Assembly: GCF_012849375.1 (NCBI RefSeq)
Contig: NZ_CP051684.1
Coordinates: 3,968,001-4,032,000, forward strand
Length of the DNA: 64,000 nt
Origin: Duganella dendranthematis
GTDB taxonomy: Bacteria > Pseudomonadota > Gammaproteobacteria > Burkholderiales > Burkholderiaceae_D
Reading direction: 5' to 3'
The translations under genes and the position numbers were made by a program. The notes beneath the pieces were generated by a model that was not told where the DNA came from, searched no databases, and saw only the letters and a program-made list of their open reading frames with translations. Each line of letters begins with the position of its first letter. Within the stretch, counting starts at the first letter, position 1. Positions 55,746 to 64,000 of this stretch are shown here, piece by piece.

Positions 55746-55988
55746 ATGAGAGACCGGGACCATGATACGGCGATGGCGGAGCTACTGGCAGCAGATCACG
55801 CCTACGCGACTGAATTGTTGCGCAGCGTTCTGTCTGACGGTAATGCGGCTGAACTGGATGTCACTTTGCGCCAAATGTGGCTCGCCTTCGGTATTGAAGG
55901 CGAGACAACATCGTTAAAAATGCTGCTCGCCGTCGTCGATCATATGGGAATGCAGCTCTCCATCGCGCCTAATGAAAGCCGAGGGTGA
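55746..55988 (+). CDS. remnant antitoxin-like protein (HI1420-type)
   Basis: 80-residue frame. Its first half (about 1-40, helical, LRSVLSDGNAAELDV) and its end (MLLAVVDHMGMQLSI) match the flanks of HI1420-type antitoxins, whose middle helix-turn-helix seems deleted or diverged. It overlaps the 3' end of the MshEN gene by 20 bp on the opposite strand. Possibly non-functional; a longer frame beginning at 55503 is an artefact through the toxin remnant. Confidence 0.5.
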   Translation: MRDRDHDTAMAELLAADHAYATELLRSVLSDGNAAELDVTLRQMWLAFGIEGETTSLKMLLAVVDHMGMQLSIAPNESRG

Positions 55989-56646
55989 TGGTGGTGCCGG
56001 TCAGGTCGATGCCTTTGATCGAGATGCTGCCGAAGCTGCTGCCTTCGGTGCCACGCACGCGGATGTTGTTGAAGGCGATTTCGCCGATCGATGACGGTAG
56101 GTTCAGCGTCAGGCTGCCGTCCTTGTTGAGCGTGGCGGCGGCTCTGCTGGCGTCGTAGACGACGTTTTTCATGCTGGTGTCGGCTTCGAGGAAACCCAGC
56201 ACCGGATTCAGTAGCTTGCTGATGTCGCCCACGACTTCCAGGTTGTTGCTCCTGGCGTGTTTGACGGCGTTGACCAGGTCGTCGCTCAAGCCCTGCGCCG
56301 AGGTGTCGCCCAGTTCTTCTTCGCTCAGCGCGCGCAGCGCACGGGTAGCGGGGGCGCTGGAGCTCATGGCTGCCGCAGGCAACGCGGTGGCGGCGTAGGT
56401 CTCCATCGGCGCCAGCAGCGAGGTGGCGATGGCTGCCGCCAACCGCAGCCGTCGTTGCTTGCGCAGTGCGTCTTCGATGTGCTGGTGGGTGATGAGGTTG
56501 AGCTCGGCGAAGATGTCGCCCAGCCGCTGGCCGGTCTGCCGTTGCAGCGCGATCGCGCTGGCCAGTTGGTCCTCGGTAATCAGCTTCTGTTTGACCAGCA
56601 GCTGACCCAGCAGCGATTTATTCTGATTGTTTGTTAGCCATCCCAT
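55969..56646 (-). CDS. MshEN-like domain / transmembrane / FilA-like C-terminal chimera
   Basis: 225-residue protein. Residues about 10-62 are a MshEN (GspE N-terminal) domain with two repeats (LLGQLLVKQKLITEDQL, RLGDIFAELNLITHQHI), a fold that binds c-di-GMP in MshE. A hydrophobic segment follows (LRLAAAIATSLLAPMETYAA), then LSEEELGDTSAQGL. The last 35 residues (SSFGSISIKGIDLTGTTI...) align with the C-termini of the FilA-like proteins at 62005 and 62646 (ASFGSVAMNQIDMRGTTV...). The start has AGGAGACA upstream. Last gene of the fil-like minus-strand operon. Function unknown; membrane topology is inferred. Confidence 0.75.
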   Translation of the reverse strand: MGWLTNNQNKSLLGQLLVKQKLITEDQLASAIALQRQTGQRLGDIFAELNLITHQHIEDALRKQRRLRLAAAIATSLLAPMETYAATALPAAAMSSSAPATRALRALSEEELGDTSAQGLSDDLVNAVKHARSNNLEVVGDISKLLNPVLGFLEADTSMKNVVYDASRAAATLNKDGSLTLNLPSSIGEIAFNNIRVRGTEGSSFGSISIKGIDLTGTTITLGFH

Positions 56647-57598
56647 GGCTGTCTCCTTTTTTATGCTGGATGTCCGACGGCGCCATGCCGAACCAGCGTT
56701 TGCATGCCCGGTAAAATGCGCTCGGCTCCGAGAAGCCCAATTGGAAGCTGAGCATCTTCAGCGACAGCTCGCCCGCGCTCAGCGATTGCCGCGCCAGTTC
56801 GCGCCGGGTGTCGTCGACCAGGTTGGTGAAGCTGGTGCCTTCTTCGGCCAGCCGGCGCTGCAAGGTGCGTTCGCTCATCATCATCTGGGCGGCGACGTCG
56901 TCCCGGTGCGGCGGGCCTTTCGGCAGCAGGCTGGCCAGCAAGGTCTGCACCTTGGCGCTGAAGGTTGGCGGTTCGGCCGCCGCCAGCGAGGCCAGTACCT
57001 GTTCGCCGCCGCCGTTGATTAGCGGCGGAGTGGCGGGCAGCGCGGCGACCAGGTCGGTATCGGAAAATTCCATGACGTTGTGCGGCATGGCGAAGCGCAC
57101 CGGGCAGCCGAAGGTGTCTTCATAGGCGCGGGCGTTGGCCGGTTCGGGGAACGCGTATTCCACCACCACCGGCGCCACGTCGTCGCGGCCGGCGGCGCAG
57201 CGTAGCGAGCGCAACAGCACGCACCAGACGAAGTCGTAGCGCTGCTGCGGCACCTCGCGCCGCGCACCGGGCAGCAGCAGGCCAACGCGGGTGTGGCCCT
57301 GGAAGCGCTCGATCGAGCTTTGCACCGTCGGCGACACCAGCATGATGTGGCCCATCACGCCCAGCCAGCCGAGCCGGTGCGGCGCCGAGATTTTCAGGCC
57401 GATCAGCGGATCGCCCGACTGCGCCACCAGCAGTTCCCACAGGTGGCTCAGTTTGTCCGACAGCGTCAGCGCATCGCACGCCAGGCCGTCGCCTTCGTCC
57501 AGGCCGGCTTGCTGGAACAGCGCATCGGCCTGCACGCCGGACTGCGCCAGCCGTGATTTCACGCCGCGCACCAGATGCAGGGCGGAAGAGTACGTCAT
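56618..57598 (-). CDS. AraC-family regulator with arabinose-binding-like domain
   Basis: 326-residue regulator of the OruR/ArgR-like AraC group. The N-terminal half is the PF12625-type sensor (LWELLVAQSGDPLIGLKI, LGWLGVMGHIM); the C-terminus has the AraC helix-turn-helix (MMSERTLQRRLAEEGTSF, LGFSEPSAFYRACKRWFG). It overlaps the DUF2059 stop (ATGA) and the following MshEN gene by 29 bp, so it is part of the fil-like operon and probably its regulator. Ligand unknown. Confidence 0.87.
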   Translation of the reverse strand: MTYSSALHLVRGVKSRLAQSGVQADALFQQAGLDEGDGLACDALTLSDKLSHLWELLVAQSGDPLIGLKISAPHRLGWLGVMGHIMLVSPTVQSSIERFQGHTRVGLLLPGARREVPQQRYDFVWCVLLRSLRCAAGRDDVAPVVVEYAFPEPANARAYEDTFGCPVRFAMPHNVMEFSDTDLVAALPATPPLINGGGEQVLASLAAAEPPTFSAKVQTLLASLLPKGPPHRDDVAAQMMMSERTLQRRLAEEGTSFTNLVDDTRRELARQSLSAGELSLKMLSFQLGFSEPSAFYRACKRWFGMAPSDIQHKKGDSHGMANKQSE

Positions 57599-58137
57599 GG
57601 CGTGACCGCAGCGCGCAGGCGCAGGCCGATTTTTTCTTTCAACCCTTGCAGCTTGGGATCGATTACCGCGCGGGTGTCGGTCGCCACGCCTTCGCCCAGG
57701 GTTTTCTGCATTTCCGGCAGCATGGCTTCAAACTTTTTCTTGACCGGCGACTCCAGGATGGCGATCAGCTGCTTCAGCTCTTCTTCCGTGTAGCGTTCGG
57801 CCAGCATCGGCGCGATGGTGATGGGAATCAGCTTGTCCGCGCTGGCGCGGGTGATCGGCGTGGCCTCGTTCATGAACTGCTTGGCTTCGCCGACGATGTC
57901 GGTCATGGCCGCGTCGCGCTTGTCCGCTGCGGCGCGTCCTTGCAGCATGGCGCGCGCCTGCTGCACGGCGTCGGCCACCGGCACTTGCAGCATCGATTGG
58001 CCGATGTTGTCGATGTTCCACAGCTTCAGCACGTGGTCCACCAGCGCCTGCTTGGACGCCGAGACCGGCGCCGCGTGCGCGTGCAGGCAAGCCGCGCTCA
58101 ACGTCAGCAAGGCCAGGTGATGTTTTATTTTTCTCAT
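57595..58137 (-). CDS. DUF2059 exported protein
   Basis: 180-residue predicted periplasmic protein with a signal peptide (LALLTLSAACLHAHA). The second half carries the DUF2059 pattern (IAPMLAERYTEEELKQLIAILESPVKKKFEAML), helical and of unknown function. The internal ATG giving a signal peptide is chosen over an upstream frame. It lies between the FadL-like gene and the AraC gene in the fil-like operon. Confidence 0.82.
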   Translation of the reverse strand: MRKIKHHLALLTLSAACLHAHAAPVSASKQALVDHVLKLWNIDNIGQSMLQVPVADAVQQARAMLQGRAAADKRDAAMTDIVGEAKQFMNEATPITRASADKLIPITIAPMLAERYTEEELKQLIAILESPVKKKFEAMLPEMQKTLGEGVATDTRAVIDPKLQGLKEKIGLRLRAAVTP

Positions 58138-58153
58138 GATGTGCTCCTCCAGA

Positions 58154-59752
58154 TCAGAAACGCTTGTTGATTTCAAAGCCAAAATAACGGACGTGGATGT
58201 CGCCGCGCACGTCCTGTCCCGCGTACGGGTTGTAGATGATGTTGAGGAAGGTGTTGCAGTTCATATTGCAGCTGGTATTGGCCGGTGCGTTGAACTTGCC
58301 GGTCATGTACGAACCGGTGATGTTGATGTCGGTATTCTTGTTCAGCTTGAAGCCGATGCCGGCGCTGAGCAGCCGGGTGTCCGGCAGCGGCGCCAGCAGA
58401 TCGATCTTGTCGGTCGGGACCGAACTCTTGCGCGGCTCGAAGCCGAGCCGGATCGACAGCCGGTCGATCGGATTCAGTTGCAGCCCGTAAGCGAAGTTGA
58501 CCACGCTCTTGTAGCCGCGCGGGATCACCAGCTTGCCCGAGTCCGGAATCCCGTACAGCCGCGCCACCTCCAGCAGCTTGACGCTCTGGTCGAACTGGAA
58601 GCGCAGCGCATCCCATTCGCTCCAGCGGGCATAGCTGGCGTCGACGTTCAGCTGGATGTATTTCACCGGCTTGAGCTTGATGCCGACTTGCAGGTGGGCA
58701 GGGAAAGGAATGGTCGCGCTCATATTGCCCTTCTGCTCGGCCGGAATCGACGACGGAAAGCCCAGCACCGCGCCGGCGATCGGTCCCAGCAGGCTGGCGT
58801 TCATGCCGCGTACAAAGTTGCGCAACATTGGATCGGTGGTGAACACGTAGTTGCCGGTGTAGTGGGTTTTCGAGCCGCCCTGGTAGACCGCGCCGATCGC
58901 CAGCTTGGGCGACGGTTCCCACAGCACGCCGAAGTTGATGGTGGGGTCGAACGGCGCGGTCAGCTCCACCCGCATATTGGCCGCCTTCTTGAACGGGCTG
59001 ACCATGCCGTCCTTGCCGCCGCCGCACACGCCAAAGCCGAACACGTCGATGATGTTGCCGCCGTCTTCCGGACACCAGCCTTTTTGCAGCTGGCCGAACA
59101 CGCCCAGCAATTCGTTGGGGAAGCGCATGTTGGTGTCGACCACAAACGCCGCGTGCGCGATCGGCACCGAGACGCCGAAGCGCAGCGTGTCCGAATACTT
59201 GTAGCCGACCGACGGCGCGGCGTACACCAGCCGCTGGATCTGCAACTGCCGGCCCTGGTACTGGCCAGGATCGTTGGGATCGGTGGTGCGGTCCAGGCTC
59301 ATCGCCTGCGCCATATAGCTGTCGGTGGCGAAGGTCCACGGCGAGCCGGCCTTGTTCCACGCCATGCCGATGCCGGGCACGGCCACCGCCGGCAAGCGCC
59401 AGCCCGGCATGCCGTAGCCGGGCACGTACATGATCTGCCGCACCGGTCCGGTGGAGGTGTTGGACAGCGGATCGTCGCGCCAGCCGCCGACGTCGAAACC
59501 CTGGCCGGGCGTGAAGCTGGCGCTGGTGCGGATCGACGCCACGAAGTTGTGGATGCTTTCGCTGTCGCCGGTCAGCCGCGCCAGCCCGGCCGGGTTGAAG
59601 TGGATCGACTGGATGCCGGGCGGATCGGCCGTCACGGCATTGCCCATCGCCATGGCCACCACGCTGGTGGTCAGGTTTTCGGTCAGCGCAGCATGGACCG
59701 GCGCAGCAAACGCGCAGGCCACGGCGGCGGCGATGGCGAGACGGCGCATCAT
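58154..59752 (-). CDS. FadL/OmpP1-family outer-membrane protein (FilD-like)
   Basis: 532-residue outer-membrane beta-barrel of the FadL/OmpP1/TodX type. After the signal peptide, AMAMGNAVTADPPGIQSIHFNPAGLARL is the family's N-terminal hatch region (quoted here in part: NAVTADPPG and HFNPAGLARL). The barrel ends in NKRF. FadL proteins pass hydrophobic molecules, but in the fil (putative pilus) cluster of Acinetobacter a FadL-like protein accompanies a C39 peptidase, as here. Start overlaps the upstream gene's stop (TAATG). Confidence 0.8.
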   Translation of the reverse strand: MMRRLAIAAAVACAFAAPVHAALTENLTTSVVAMAMGNAVTADPPGIQSIHFNPAGLARLTGDSESIHNFVASIRTSASFTPGQGFDVGGWRDDPLSNTSTGPVRQIMYVPGYGMPGWRLPAVAVPGIGMAWNKAGSPWTFATDSYMAQAMSLDRTTDPNDPGQYQGRQLQIQRLVYAAPSVGYKYSDTLRFGVSVPIAHAAFVVDTNMRFPNELLGVFGQLQKGWCPEDGGNIIDVFGFGVCGGGKDGMVSPFKKAANMRVELTAPFDPTINFGVLWEPSPKLAIGAVYQGGSKTHYTGNYVFTTDPMLRNFVRGMNASLLGPIAGAVLGFPSSIPAEQKGNMSATIPFPAHLQVGIKLKPVKYIQLNVDASYARWSEWDALRFQFDQSVKLLEVARLYGIPDSGKLVIPRGYKSVVNFAYGLQLNPIDRLSIRLGFEPRKSSVPTDKIDLLAPLPDTRLLSAGIGFKLNKNTDINITGSYMTGKFNAPANTSCNMNCNTFLNIIYNPYAGQDVRGDIHVRYFGFEINKRF

Positions 59753-60762
59753 TACAGGCTCAGCGGAATGTTCATGCCGACCACCAGGTTAGGCGAATCC
59801 GGCGTGACGCCGATGCCGACCGAGAAATTGACCGTGGTCTTGGGTGAGATGCGGTAGCCCAGTCCCAGGTTGAGGATGCCCGAAGTCTGCATGTGCGTCT
59901 TGGCCTCCAGGCCGTCGGCAAAGCGCAGCTTGGAACCGGCCGAAATCGCTTCCTGGAACGACACCGTGGTCGAGATGCCGTACGACAGCGCATAGGCGAA
60001 GCCGACGCCGAAACCGAAGCTGCTGCCGGGCTGCACACGCGTCAGGATGCGCGAGCCGTTGATCTGCCACAGGTCTTTGGCCGGCGCGCTGACCGTGTAG
60101 TTGAGCGAACCGAACAGCGCGACCGGGTCGACGATCTTGTTGACGTTGAGGCCGACCGTCAGCGCGCCGACGCCGCTGCCGGTCGCTTCGCCGGTGCCGG
60201 CGATGATCTTGAACGGGCTGCGGCCGGTCGGCAGGCGGACGTTGCTGACCACGGTGAGATTCGGCGTGTCGCGGCGCGCCTCGAACGGCTGCCAGCGCAC
60301 GCCGGCGCTGATGTCGCCGAGCGAATTGGACATGCCGCTGCGCGCCGCCGTGTCGGCATAGCGCGAGATCAGCGGCAGCGTAACGTTGGTGGTCAGGTTG
60401 TCGCGCAGGCCGTAGTCGGCCGACAGCGTGTTGGTGACCGTGTGCGAGTTGTTGTTTTCGATGTTGAACAGCGTGGCGTTGCCGTTGGCGATGTCGGTGA
60501 CGATGCGCTCTTCGCCGACGTAGCTGTAGCTGAGGTCATAGTTCAGCGCGATCTGGCCGGTGCGGATTAGCGAGTATTGCTTGTCGACGGCGGTCAGCGT
60601 CTGTTTCAGCAGCGCGCTCTGGTCGCCTTCGCCTTCCTTCTTGGCCAGCGCGTCGCGCGCATCGGCGGTGGTGGCGGTGGCCGCAGGGGGCGTTTGTTGG
60701 GCGAGGGCAGAGGTCGCGGTCAGCGCAACGGCGACGGCAATAGCAGTGGTACGGAACATCAT
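59752..60762 (-). CDS. outer-membrane beta-barrel protein (FilC-like)
   Basis: 336-residue exported protein with signal peptide (ALTATSALAQ), a helical linker (about 30-65) and beta-barrel-like repeats of alternating residues ending in NIPLSL. It resembles transporter-like proteins of the MetA-pathway/phenol type barrel annotated as FilC in Acinetobacter; naming is from memory of that cluster. GGAAG precedes the paired ATGs. Translationally coupled to the FadL-like gene. Confidence 0.72.
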   Translation of the reverse strand: MMFRTTAIAVAVALTATSALAQQTPPAATATTADARDALAKKEGEGDQSALLKQTLTAVDKQYSLIRTGQIALNYDLSYSYVGEERIVTDIANGNATLFNIENNNSHTVTNTLSADYGLRDNLTTNVTLPLISRYADTAARSGMSNSLGDISAGVRWQPFEARRDTPNLTVVSNVRLPTGRSPFKIIAGTGEATGSGVGALTVGLNVNKIVDPVALFGSLNYTVSAPAKDLWQINGSRILTRVQPGSSFGFGVGFAYALSYGISTTVSFQEAISAGSKLRFADGLEAKTHMQTSGILNLGLGYRISPKTTVNFSVGIGVTPDSPNLVVGMNIPLSL

Positions 60763-60800: not shown

Positions 60801-61568
60801 TTAGTTACGGTGCATCCAGGTGCCGGCCGCGCCGGAATTGACGGCGCGCATCAGCAGCAGGGCGCTGTTGCTGAGCGCTTCCTGCCGGCCCTTGCCGGTC
60901 ACGCGGTCCATGTCGACCACGCCCAGTTCCTGGTCGTTGAGGGCCAGCTGGCCGAGCGGCGCCTGGCCCTTGGCCGGCGAGATGATGAACAGGGTGTTCT
61001 TGTCCCACCAGCGGGCGAACTCTTCGACCGAAAACACGATGTTGCCGGCCGAGGGATCGGCCAGGTAGACCACACCGTCGCGGATGCCGCGCAGCACCAC
61101 GAAGTGCTTGGCGCCGGCATAGTCGATCGGCACGATGGCCGGCTCGGTCAGTGTCTGCAAGTCCTTGATCTCGGCCTTGAAGCCGGCGCCGGACAGGCCC
61201 ATCGAGCCGACGTAGCGCTTCATGTCGAGCAGCGAAAAGCCGCGCCGCTCGATGATCTTGTCCTTCTCGCCCTTGTCCAGCATGCCTTCCATGGCTTGCT
61301 GCTCGTTGACCATCACGCCCAGGTGGTAGTTGAGGATGGTGACCAGCGCCGCCGAGCCGCAGCTGTAGTCGAACGCCTGACGGACGATGTGTTTGTACTT
61401 GAGTTCGGAGAACGGCTCCATCTGCACCGACTGCACGTAGCCGCCGCCGCCCAACTGCGTTTGCGGCATCTCGAACTGGCTCTTGGGCCGGTCCTGCGGT
61501 TCGTGTCGCGACATGACACCGGCGCCGCCGATCAGCACGGCGACCACACCCAGCAATAGCATCAGCAT
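60801..61568 (-). CDS. membrane-anchored C39 family peptidase (FilB-like)
   Basis: 255-residue protein with one N-terminal transmembrane helix (LMLLLGVVAVLIGGAGVM) and a C39 peptidase domain predicted to face the periplasm. Catalytic residues are visible: Cys in DYSCGSAAL (about residue 70) with upstream Gln in VRQAF, His in KHFVVLRG and Asp in YLADPSAG. No ABC transporter domains are present, unlike bacteriocin exporters. First gene of the minus-strand fil-like operon, divergent from the FilA-like genes, which are candidate substrates. Confidence 0.82.
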   Translation of the reverse strand: MLMLLLGVVAVLIGGAGVMSRHEPQDRPKSQFEMPQTQLGGGGYVQSVQMEPFSELKYKHIVRQAFDYSCGSAALVTILNYHLGVMVNEQQAMEGMLDKGEKDKIIERRGFSLLDMKRYVGSMGLSGAGFKAEIKDLQTLTEPAIVPIDYAGAKHFVVLRGIRDGVVYLADPSAGNIVFSVEEFARWWDKNTLFIISPAKGQAPLGQLALNDQELGVVDMDRVTGKGRQEALSNSALLLMRAVNSGAAGTWMHRN

Positions 61569-62004
61569 GGGCTAGCCTCTTACGCGGGCGCGCGAAAACG
61601 TGTCGGCTTGCGTAGCGCTGGCGTGCGCTCCGCCCAGAGGCGTCGGGCGCCCCGTTGTTGTGTTCATGCTGTCTCCGTTATTCTAGATTAGTACGGTCGT
61701 GCTTTATTTAAGCGGCAACTCGTCTTTTCATTTTTGTAATTTATTAACGCATGTTTGGGCTTGCCATCGCAGCTACTTTTTTAGAAATGTGACTCTAGGT
61801 TTTCTTCTGCAACTTATGCTATCGCGCGCAACAGTGCAGCAACCGCCGCGTCGCTCTGCTGGCTCCCGGGGCCAAGCGGTTGGCTTTGGCGGTCAGCGCG
61901 ACGAACTGGACCCGTGGCGGCAACGACTCATAAGATTGTTTTTAATTAATAGTCAAATATTAAGAGTTTTACGAAAAAAACCAACCACAACCGGAGATAC
62001 CCAC
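61569..62004. promoter_or_regulatory. divergent control region of the fil-like cluster
   Basis: 436 bp between filB-like and filA-like starts without a credible gene. The part next to filA (61680-61760 and 61940-61990) is AT-rich, unlike the genome, and should hold the filA promoter. GGAGA precedes the filA-like ATG at 62005. No perfect palindrome longer than about 8 bp was noticed by eye. Confidence 0.5.
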
Positions 62005-62514
62005 ATGCAGACCATCAAAACCATTCTGGCCGCCGCCCTCGCCACCGCAGCTTTCTCGGCCTCGGCCATGACCCCGATCCAGGATGCCGAGCTGAGCACC
62101 GTCAGCGGCCAGGACGGCGTCTCCATCGCCGCCAACCTGAACATCAAGATCAACTCGTTCACCTACACCGACACCGATGCGCTCGACGCCAACGGCCTGG
62201 GCGGCGGTTCGGTGTCGTTCAACGGCATCAAGGTCAACGGCCTGATCGCTGCCAACATCGACATCCTGTCGCGCAACTCCTTCCTGGCAGCGGCGACCGC
62301 CGCCGGCGTGACCAATCCAGGCACCTTCTACAACGCCACCACCGGCGGCGACGTGGTGCAGATCGCCATTCCGCAAAGCGTGGTGGCCGATGGTCACTAC
62401 CTGAACGTGTCGGTTGACGCCATCAAGATGGGCAACAACGCTGCCTCGTTCGGCTCGGTCGCGATGAACCAGATCGACATGCGCGGCACCACCGTCTGGA
62501 TCTTCGCGCACTAA
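62005..62514 (+). CDS. DUF6160 / FilA-like exported protein, copy 1
   Basis: 169-residue protein with a Sec signal peptide ending FSASA, followed immediately by TPIQDAELSTVSGQDG, an ELSxVxGQ motif like a double-glycine leader with Gln in place of the second Gly. The remainder is a beta-rich, Asn/Asp/Gly-rich domain (NLNIKINSFTYTDTDALD, FGSVAMNQIDMRGTTVWIF). Matches DUF6160 proteins, called FilA in the putative pilus cluster of Acinetobacter. Nearly identical to copy 2. May be the major surface or fibre subunit; inferred. Confidence 0.8.
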   Translation: MQTIKTILAAALATAAFSASAMTPIQDAELSTVSGQDGVSIAANLNIKINSFTYTDTDALDANGLGGGSVSFNGIKVNGLIAANIDILSRNSFLAAATAAGVTNPGTFYNATTGGDVVQIAIPQSVVADGHYLNVSVDAIKMGNNAASFGSVAMNQIDMRGTTVWIFAH

Positions 62515-62645
62515 TCGCGCGGCGGCTCGTGACGCATGTAGCTTGGCTTGGTGCGTCATGGCGCTGGCAGTAACGGCGGCCTAACATGGTTGTCGCGGTA
62601 ACCAAAAAACATAACCCAAACATACATATTTAGGAGACTGATTCC

Positions 62646-63155
62646 ATGCAAATCATCAAAACCGCAGTCGCAGCAGCCCTGGCAACCCTGGCCTTCTCGG
62701 CGTCGGCCATGACCCCGATCCAGGACGCTGAACTGAGCACCGTCAGCGGCCAGGATGGCGTGTCGATCGCCGCCAACCTGAACATCAAAATCGATTCCTT
62801 CACGTACACCGATACCGATGCGCTGGACGCCAACGGTCTGGGCGGTGGTTCGGTATCGTTCAACGGCATCAAGGTCAACGGCCTGATCGCGGCCAACATC
62901 GACATCCTGTCGAAAGCCTCGTTCCTGCAGGCTGCCGGCGCCGCGGGCGTGACCAATCCAGGCACCTTCTACAACCCAGCCACCGGCGGTGACGTGGTGC
63001 AGATCGCCATCCCGCAAAGCGTGGTGGCGGATGGTCACTACCTGAACGTGTCGGTCGACGCGATCAAGATGGGCAACAGCGCCGCTTCGTTCGGCTCGGT
63101 CGCCATGAACCAGATCGATATGCGCGGTACCACCGTGTGGATCTTCGCTCACTAA
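62646..63155 (+). CDS. DUF6160 / FilA-like exported protein, copy 2
   Basis: 169-residue tandem duplicate of copy 1. The mature region differs at only a handful of positions (for example NSFT to DSFT, SRNSFLAAAT to SKASFLQAAG), while the signal peptides differ more (TILAAALATAAF versus TAVAAALATLAF). It keeps TPIQDAELSTVSGQDG. Its own GGAGACTG lies before the ATG, and a 131-bp spacer separates the copies. Followed by a terminator-like hairpin. Confidence 0.82.
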   Translation: MQIIKTAVAAALATLAFSASAMTPIQDAELSTVSGQDGVSIAANLNIKIDSFTYTDTDALDANGLGGGSVSFNGIKVNGLIAANIDILSKASFLQAAGAAGVTNPGTFYNPATGGDVVQIAIPQSVVADGHYLNVSVDAIKMGNSAASFGSVAMNQIDMRGTTVWIFAH

Positions 63156-63167
63156 TTGGCTGAGCGA

Positions 63168-63198
63168 CGGCGGTTCCTACCGGAGCCGCCGCTGTTTT
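63168..63198 (+). terminator. terminator-like hairpin after filA copy 2
   Basis: Stem of 10 pairs (CGGCGGTTCC with GGAGCCGCCG, one G-U), loop TACC, followed by CTGTTTT. It lies only 6 nt before the ATG of the next gene, so it may attenuate read-through and reduce expression of the downstream gene relative to filA. Confidence 0.6.
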
Positions 63199-63203
63199 CC
63201 TCC

Positions 63204-63995
63204 ATGATTTTTCCTCCATTGCGCCGGCTGCTGCCGGGCCTGGCCCTGCTGTGCGGCATGCACGCGGCCACGGCCCAGATGCAGCCCATGAGCGAAGACG
63301 AACTGTCCAGCATTCACGGACAGGGCATCGTCACGATGACCAATACCAGCCTGGGCGGATACGATTTCAGCAAGGTCGCGCTGGAGGCGGATATTTCGCT
63401 GAGCGCCAACCTGCGCAATATGCGGTTGGGCCAGTACGCCTACGCGCCGCGCAACGGCGGCGGCGCCGATCTCGACATCTCGCTGATGCAGTTCGGCCGC
63501 AGCGACGGCACCGACGCGCAGCGCCTGGTGCAGATCAGCAATCCCTATTTCGAATTTGTGTACAAGAACGCGGCCGATGGCGCTTCGCGCGAGGCGATCG
63601 GCATGCGCTTTGGCTTTGAGTCGATCAGCGGCGATATCGGTTTGCAGATCAAGACCCTGTCCGGCTCGATGCGCGTGACCGGCACGGCGGCCGACGGCAG
63701 CGCGCTGGTGCTCGACTCGCGCACCGACGCCCTGGGTGGCAAGCGCTGGGATGGTGCGTGCAGCGGCTCGTGCCTGTCGCTGGCGCAGCTGGGCGGCGTG
63801 ACGGCCGGCGACGCCAGCGGCGGCAGCCGGGATTTCTGGGTCTCCATGCTGAAGACGGCCGTGCAATTTCCGACAGCGGCGGGCTTGCCGGCGTCCGATC
63901 CGGCGCAGGCCGGCGTGTGGCTGAACTGGCGCGATAAATTGCAGGCGCTGAACACCAGCGGCATCACGCCGCCCAACTTGCCGAAGGGGCGTTGA
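63204..63995 (+). CDS. exported FilA-related protein with ELSSIHGQG motif
   Basis: 263-residue predicted exported protein. A signal peptide (RLLPGLALLCGMHAATAQ) is followed by MSEDELSSIHGQGIV, the same ELSxxxGQ-type motif as in the two FilA-like proteins, and a large beta-rich domain with two Cys close together (ACSGSC). The ATG at 63204 gives the signal; an upstream TTG frame crosses the terminator. No clear Shine-Dalgarno sequence. A further gene probably starts at 63995 (TGATG). Function unknown; it may be a minor component of the same surface structure. Confidence 0.72.
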   Translation: MIFPPLRRLLPGLALLCGMHAATAQMQPMSEDELSSIHGQGIVTMTNTSLGGYDFSKVALEADISLSANLRNMRLGQYAYAPRNGGGADLDISLMQFGRSDGTDAQRLVQISNPYFEFVYKNAADGASREAIGMRFGFESISGDIGLQIKTLSGSMRVTGTAADGSALVLDSRTDALGGKRWDGACSGSCLSLAQLGGVTAGDASGGSRDFWVSMLKTAVQFPTAAGLPASDPAQAGVWLNWRDKLQALNTSGITPPNLPKGR

Positions 63996-64000
63996 TGCGG

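Follow-up and report, generated by a model that had tools for sequence, protein, structure and literature searches.

The window considered here is a stretch of 64,000 bp from Duganella dendranthematis (contig NZ_CP051684.1, positions 3,968,001 to 4,032,000 of a 6.5 Mb genome in a single contig). This report concerns a gene cluster near the end of the window and a second leader of about 15 residues that sits behind the Sec signal of each FilA-like protein encoded there. The locus reads as a Fil-type cluster with FilB, FilC (kin of the amyloid pore FapF), FilD and FilA proteins. The FilA to FilD families are known from Acinetobacter and are listed in NCBIfam as a 'putative pilus system'. Removal of the second leader after Gly-Gln by FilB, a C39 peptidase, is the most likely account of the data, and we hold it with considerable confidence. 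The genes for the C39 peptidase, the pore, the FadL family protein, the DUF2059-like protein, the AraC-type regulator and the MshEN protein are on the minus strand, and the filA-type genes are divergent on the plus strand. The features are given below in window coordinates, unless a locus handle is stated.

60801 to 61568, minus strand: FilB-like periplasmic C39 peptidase, 255 amino acids (aa); predicted anchor helix 2-19, catalytic domain about 57-205, C-terminal helical tail
62005 to 62514, plus strand: FilA1, pilus subunit precursor, 169 aa (PF19657, 74.8 bits, cut-off 27)
62068 to 62112, plus strand: second leader of FilA1, MTPIQDAELSTVSGQ, cut predicted after Q36
62646 to 63155, plus strand: FilA2, pilus subunit precursor, 169 aa (PF19657, 73.4 bits; relative of PDB 9XFV)
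62709 to 62753, plus strand: second leader of FilA2, the same as in FilA1 (MTPIQDAELSTVSGQ), cut predicted after Q36
63204 to 63995, plus strand: third leader-bearing exported protein, 263 aa (leader profile E 7.8e-14; PF19657 19.1 bits, below cut-off)
63279 to 63323, plus strand: second leader of the third exported protein, MQPMSEDELSSIHGQ, cut predicted after Q40
63992 to 64000 (L004:4192-5019), plus strand: fourth leader-bearing gene, start only, running past the window end (SSVRGRDG)
L004:5016-5477, plus strand: fifth leader-bearing gene, wholly past the window end (canonical ELSQVRGGDG)
59752 to 60762, minus strand: FilC-like outer-membrane protein, likely secretion pore (NF050079, 258 bits, below cut-off)
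58154 to 59752, minus strand: FilD-like OmpP1/FadL family protein (NF050080, 414 bits, below the cut-off of 970; PF03349, 127 bits, above cut-off)
57595 to 58140, minus strand: small protein, weakly similar to DUF2059 (PF09832, 19.1 bits, below cut-off)
56618 to 57598, minus strand: AraC-type regulator (PF12625 and PF12833 above cut-off)
55969 to 56646, minus strand: MshEN domain (cyclic di-GMP (c-di-GMP) type), membrane helix, second leader and FilA-like C-terminal strand
56293 to 56337, minus strand: second leader of the MshEN protein, LRALSEEELGDTSAQ

All four NCBIfam models, FilA, FilB, FilC and FilD, were matched at the locus, every score being below the curated cut-off. With the PF19657 gathering cut-off of 27, FilA1 and FilA2 are above, and the protein at 63204-63995 (19.1 bits) and the MshEN protein (16.8 bits) are below.

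FilB of the window is 100% identical to a C39 protein of Duganella levis across 255 residues. It passes the model of peptidase family C39 (PF03412, 69.1 bits, cut-off 22), has the papain-like C39 fold of that family and carries the catalytic set Gln64, Cys70, His155 and Asp171, which is retained in 91 of 91 Fil-type C39 sequences. A single N-terminal helix is predicted (residues 2-19), and an ABC part is absent from the 255 residues, leaving a stand-alone protein rather than an exporter of the PCAT/AMS type. The original prediction had described a neighboring C39 peptidase with intact Cys, His and Asp, a single membrane anchor and no ABC exporter, and was correct in each respect. Scores against the NCBIfam models for FilB (NF050078, 219.9 bits) and FapD (NF058616, 128 bits) are below the cut-offs of 475 and 330; the cut-off of 475 was reached by no genome across the three samples (class and two orders) described below. 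FilB-type proteins were defined as those with at least 170 bits against NF050078, a threshold set by the author, the observed gap being 174 to 133. The tail of FilB (60804-60947; LxLxDxELxxV, Asp at -2/-3) was tried as an internal leader mimic or pseudo-substrate and rejected. With the leader score matrix the FilB tails have a median of 3.1, as compared with a 99th percentile of 9.5 for shuffled FilB, and 0 of 91 lie above the 99th percentile of a control set of other proteins, which is too strict because it included leader proteins.

FilA1 and FilA2 read MTPIQDAELSTVSGQ/DGVSI (the slash marks the predicted cut), the third exported protein MQPMSEDELSSIHGQ/GIVTM and the MshEN protein LRALSEEELGDTSAQ/GLSDD. 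The motifs first noted, ELSTVSGQDG or ELSSIHGQG after the Sec signal of three exported proteins and EEELGDTSAQG in the MshEN protein, are all present. The five plus-strand proteins have DAELSTVSGQ/DG (twice), EDELSSIHGQ/G, DSVLSSVRGR/DG and DQELSQVRGG/DG, each behind a Sec-type signal, so that one position is occupied by GQ, GQ, GQ, GR and canonical GG inside a single cluster. These five proteins are the only matches of the leader profile in the window genome. Over 80 named filB loci and further stretches the profile gave 301 hits; five were dropped because no motif could be placed, and the remaining 296 were reduced to 213 distinct leaders by removal of duplicates of the same 40-residue stretch. 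Position -12 is L, M or I, -10 is D or E (97%), -7 is L or M, -4 is V or I (90%), -2 is G (95%) or otherwise A, and -1 is Q (62%), R (24%), G (6%) or A (6%); the placing pattern itself required a hydrophobic residue at -7 and G or A at -2, positions -12 and -10 only added to the score, and leaders of this kind were the source of the profile. GG, GA and GS precede the cut in just 13, 11 and 2 of the 213 leaders, and 185 leaders have 15-17 residues after A/V/S-x-A. The GQ variant of the double-glycine leader proposed at first is seen in the three GQ proteins of the window; among the 213 leaders, R, G and A are also found at -1. No description of the Fil second leader was found among the matches listed for the open-licence literature.

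In the C39 peptidase LahT150 the pockets for leader positions -4, -7 and -12 have been solved, and the known cut sites of C39 peptidases lie after GG, GA or GS, according to the accessible part of PMC6363468. The Fil leader positions match these pockets, so that the Fil leader agrees with the C39 code in register while its P1 is unusual. Like double-glycine leaders, the Fil leaders are hydrophobic at -4, -7 and -12, with T at -4 in the MshEN protein, and the Gly-Gly, Gly-Ala or Gly-Ser ending is replaced in the window by GQ in three exported proteins and by AQ in the MshEN protein. The register also bears on an alternative, considered unlikely, in which Gly is at P1 and the cut falls at the neighboring bond (G/Q), or in which a different periplasmic protease makes the cut and FilB merely guides or activates. 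A small P1 is preferred by C39 enzymes (PMC6363468, accessible part) and Gly at -2 is nearly invariant (95%), but a cut after Q places the key residues at -4, -7 and -12 as in LahT150, whereas a cut after G would place them at -3, -6 and -11. The chain of the filament structure 9XFV, described below, begins with D, not Q, and the full catalytic set of FilB in 91 of 91 sequences argues against another protease.

In five multi-paralogue genomes, identity between paralogues is 39-59% over the final 16 residues of the leader, a figure inflated because the proteins were found by their leader, and 9-12% over the following 40 residues, a figure that is not inflated. For three of the eight genomes compared (G000, G006 and G008) there was no result, the probable cause being that de-duplication retained copies from unmapped loci. 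The Fil leader thus has the appearance of a portable tag on otherwise unlike proteins, used genome-wide. Long leader proteins, with open frames of about 770-900 aa, recur in the FilB-positive genomes G602, G679, G699, G565, G870, G879-G881 and others, often beside shorter ones, and could be adhesins of the same system. A resemblance to bacteriocin leaders is hinted at by a small exported protein (L091:10599-11075), whose leader is matched by the lantibiotic model TIGR03898 (E 4.1e-4, below cut-off). At the other end of the proteins, a terminal His is found in 94 of 204 complete leader proteins (e.g., GTTVWIFAH, QVRFWGH), many of them orthologues, as compared with 5.2% of 2240 control open reading frames (ORFs); FilA1 and FilA2, with last codons at 62509-62511 and 63150-63152, are within this trend.

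The genomic distribution of FilB and DUF6160 was determined in three samples, with 276 genomes from the class, 250 from the order to which the window genome belongs and 195 from that of G006, together at least 711 distinct genomes (G000-G710). DUF6160 (E 1e-3 or better) was present in 33 genomes and a FilB-type protein in 31, all 31 of which also have DUF6160; no genome has FilB alone. The genomes with DUF6160 only are G423, in which the leader gene runs off the contig edge, and G572, in which the hit is an unrelated protein; DUF6160 genes regularly found without a C39 peptidase, the outcome named at the outset as contrary to the prediction, were not seen in these samples. A phylum sample of 199 genomes, searched for DUF6160 only, gave 10 matches, one of them new (G795). 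A 40-position leader profile has matches in 29 of 29 FilB-positive genomes given and in G423 (221 in all, 2-21 per genome), and in one of 38 FilB-negative genomes (G154, two weak matches), which were hand-picked from the same samples, not random, some of them with FapD-type enzymes. This run took 29 of the 31 FilB-positive genomes, G637 and G679 being left out; by handle, 11 of the 30 leader-matching genomes had given profile rows and 19 had not. Leader proteins are often unlinked to filB: a leader gene lies within the fetched stretch at 59 of the 80 named filB loci, and for the other 21 loci all 21 genomes have leader matches elsewhere (1-13 each). At least two of these 21 genomes share coordinates with other samples (G886/G626, G876/G670), so that the sets overlap. 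The co-occurrence of FilB and leader exceeds chance, as judged from the leader profile (29 of 29 against one of 38 genomes); Fisher values, which presuppose independent genomes, a total of 711 and an estimated family number, are given no weight. In Marinobacter loci (L109, L144 and others) the stretch fetched around filB has no leader gene and leader proteins are encoded elsewhere in the genome; in L109 and L144 filB comes after a transporter-like gene.

PDB entry 9XFV is a native 'Pilus-like-alpha' filament from a karst cave, built of a FilA relative (profile E 7.1e-50); the entry text names it just 'bacteria pilus (like)', without a link to Fil or C39 processing. Its chain is numbered 38-210 and starts with DGVSIAG, at the residue after GQ, and its nearest relative in the present data (85.5% identity) is a 210-aa precursor with Q37/D38. 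The original prediction of Sec export followed by a second cleavage after GQ is supported in this way, FilB as the cutter and the Q/D bond being the parts that we infer. A mature protein that begins directly after the Sec site, the outcome named beforehand as contrary to that prediction, is not seen in 9XFV, though the deposited sequence may be the modelled part only. It is judged very unlikely that the leader is never removed and serves for docking to FilB or FilC, with FilB acting as a chaperone in the manner of the C39-like domains found in some exporters. Inactive C39-like domains exist (PMC5557850, PMC6363468, accessible parts) and cleavage by FilB is a step that we infer; the inactive domains are described in the accessible part of PMC6363468 as having no catalytic Cys, which FilB keeps in 91 of 91 sequences, and the leader is absent from the filament model. 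In the AlphaFold2 (AF2) model of FilA2 the leader has low confidence, with a short helix at 27-31, and the strands of the beta domain run from residue 39. The position of GQDGVSI at the start of that domain would suit a motif that is the first strand of the DUF6160 fold and unrelated to the peptidase, to which next to no credence is given: the leader precedes the predicted fold, it is all that proteins with unrelated downstream parts have in common, its presence tracks FilB, and a similar pattern is found ahead of FapE, a protein without a DUF6160 match.

The MshEN protein matches NF053729 at its N terminus (60.4 bits, cut-off 38), followed by a membrane helix (read by eye) and then the leader; its C terminus gives 11.4 bits with the FilA model (E 0.16), below cut-off. 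The leader is kept in 11 of 11 MshEN copies found by pattern in named fil loci, and other copies, for example from Massilia, read LSDAELGEVTAQ/G. Further fusions were located as follows.

L104:13975-14709, L093:13939-14673, L085:14058-14846, L081:14900-15601 and L099:11527-12291: further MshEN fusions

The fusion is possibly a c-di-GMP-controlled, cleavable pilus component. If FilB cuts its leader, the outer part would be freed from the c-di-GMP-type sensor, which is a guess.

The account favored, second-step processing by FilB after GQ, rests on four observations: a leader shared in one register, catalytic residues that are intact, linkage at genome level and a filament of a FilA relative whose model starts after GQ. 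Fil proteins would leave the cytoplasm by the Sec pathway and be cut by signal peptidase after A-x-A. The remaining leader of about 15 residues would bind the C39 groove of FilB, a putative periplasmic membrane-anchored endopeptidase, via its hydrophobic residues at -12, -7 and -4 and would be cut after G-Q (or G-R, G-G). Trimmed FilA, with D-G-V-S-I first, would then pass the FapF-like pore FilC and assemble into a pilus-like filament. For a newly solved pilus-like filament, this reading offers a proposed machinery and maturation step. Several observations weigh against it. A P1 of Gln or Arg, like the Ala that occupies -2 in about 5% of leaders, is without precedent in the C39 literature as far as the sources at hand cover it, and the MshEN leader of the window, with T at -4 and A at -2, was missed by the genome-wide profile. 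The sequence deposited for 9XFV may be trimmed, as stated above, and the paper for this entry was not found in the open-licence literature. In G795, a fragmented metagenome-assembled genome of another class, a convincing leader protein lies at a contig end and FilB was not found, its C39 matches being in frames of at least 334 aa. FilB was likewise not found in the fragmented assembly of G423, which has seven leader matches and just a weak C39 match of another kind, and the sole leader match of G883 is weak (E 6.6e-4).

A comparison was made with the Fap amyloid system of Pseudomonas, to which the Fil system is, as judged from the proteins encoded, kin. In the PDB, FilC has four matches (E up to 1), all of them FapF, the best with E 8.6e-19; against the FapF model NF058560 it scores 87.4 bits, below the cut-off of 700. 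Both systems have a periplasmic C39 peptidase with intact catalytic residues adjoining a FapF-type pore, and FapE bears a similar leader, e.g., ELKDQELATLRGR/Y, the NCBIfam FapE model being above cut-off in three of three proteins tested. In four fap operons of family f144 (L250-L253), FapE has ELKD-x-E-[LM]-A-x-LRG[RK]/Y behind its signal; by NCBIfam the operons encode FapE (3/3), a C39 peptidase that is FapD (3/3) and a next protein that is FapF (4/4), and fapE stands directly downstream of fapD. FapE had no Pfam match in two proteins tested and so is not a DUF6160 protein by that test.

Starting from 52 non-Fil C39 genes of the stand-alone type, the next protein downstream was scored with a Fil-only matrix (-12 to -2); 42 genes gave a usable protein and ten had no signal-bearing ORF in that place. 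Twenty-eight of the 42 were above the 95th percentile and 12 above the 99th percentile of 2227 controls, several of the top controls being leader proteins themselves (MshEN fusions). A strict pattern for leaders beside non-Fil C39 genes had given 18 of 42. In 32 of the 42 proteins scored with the matrix the stretch ends RG[GRK][FY]; position -12 is L, V or I and position -7 is L or M, D occupies -10 in 22 of the 32, and -3 and -2 are invariably R and G. Position -4 is Gln in six and Tyr in one of the 32, so that a hydrophobic -4 is not strict in FapE-type leaders.

A study of 2017 (PMC5557850) reported Fap proteins to be without canonical C39 sites, the Cys of FapD to be required for secretion and FapE alone to be fully N-terminally processed in mass spectra, as given in the accessible part of that source. 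The papers of 2017 and 2018 did not settle what FapD cuts, having found no canonical C39 sites and the FapE N terminus to be missing (PMC5557850, PMC6173800, accessible parts). According to the available portion of a review of December 2025 (PMC12822426), FapD is thought to process FapE and FapF. The C39-type leader of FapE goes unmentioned in the accessible parts of the Fap literature, and it bears on the question of FapD's substrate.

The window genome has a second, Fap-like operon (L005:6033-10655; G000:C1 5070032-5074654), with a Gly-rich protein of 634 aa, a small RLARLRGG protein, a FapD-like C39 peptidase, a protein with ELEQVRGG following its signal and a FapF-like pore, and a sigma-54 type regulator upstream. 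Neither its stand-alone C39 peptidase nor its pore reaches the cut-off of the FapD or FapF model. Eight exported proteins at four loci (L161, L165, L168 and L176), adjoining other stand-alone C39 genes, have a putative third class of leader, [ML]-D-x-[VIM]-x-A-G, in which the -12/-10/-7/-4 spacing is retained.

A wider reading, for which the chances appear even, is a general post-Sec system of N-terminal processing and sorting. FilB would mature up to about twenty unlinked, unrelated exported proteins via the portable Phi-x-D/E-x-x-L-x-x-V-x-G-Q/R leader; together with FapD (FapE: ELxxLRG[GRK]) and the third class it would form a periplasmic C39 family with distinct P1 codes. In the Fil branch the c-di-GMP-sensing tethered subunit would itself be a substrate, and its cut could gate pilus assembly. 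The common leader code predicts exact cut sites in FapE and in more than 200 Fil leaders. DUF6160 would gain a role, and C39 processing would be widened from bacteriocin export to envelope biogenesis after Sec.

Like the 'putative pilus system' of NCBIfam, the window locus matches the models of FilA, FilB, FilC and FilD; it differs in scores below the cut-offs, in divergent filA genes, in the MshEN fusion and in the AraC regulator. From Fap the Fil system differs in its product, Fap being an N/Q-repeat amyloid whereas FilA relatives form the solved pilus-like filament of beta subunits. FapB/FapC-type N/Q-rich repeat subunits were not noticed among the ORFs around filB, for which no dedicated search was made. 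Position -1 is R, G or K in FapE and mostly Q or R in Fil, and Fil leaders do not as a rule have the R at -3 and the aromatic residue at +1 that are found in FapE. Fil genomes have many unlinked leader proteins, and FilB and FilC are below the FapD and FapF cut-offs. Unlike PCAT1, ComA and LahT, which act on double-glycine leaders, the Fil system has no ABC exporter, acts after Sec and has GQ or GR instead of GG, GA or GS. The exosortase/PEP-CTERM and rhombosortase/GlyGly-CTERM systems resemble the proposed Fil scheme in that a single protease serves many unrelated exported proteins through one short, portable tag; the Fil tag follows the Sec signal at the N terminus, and a C39 enzyme is the Fil protease. 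As proposed, Fil processing is C39 leader processing moved behind Sec, a feature that it would share with Fap.

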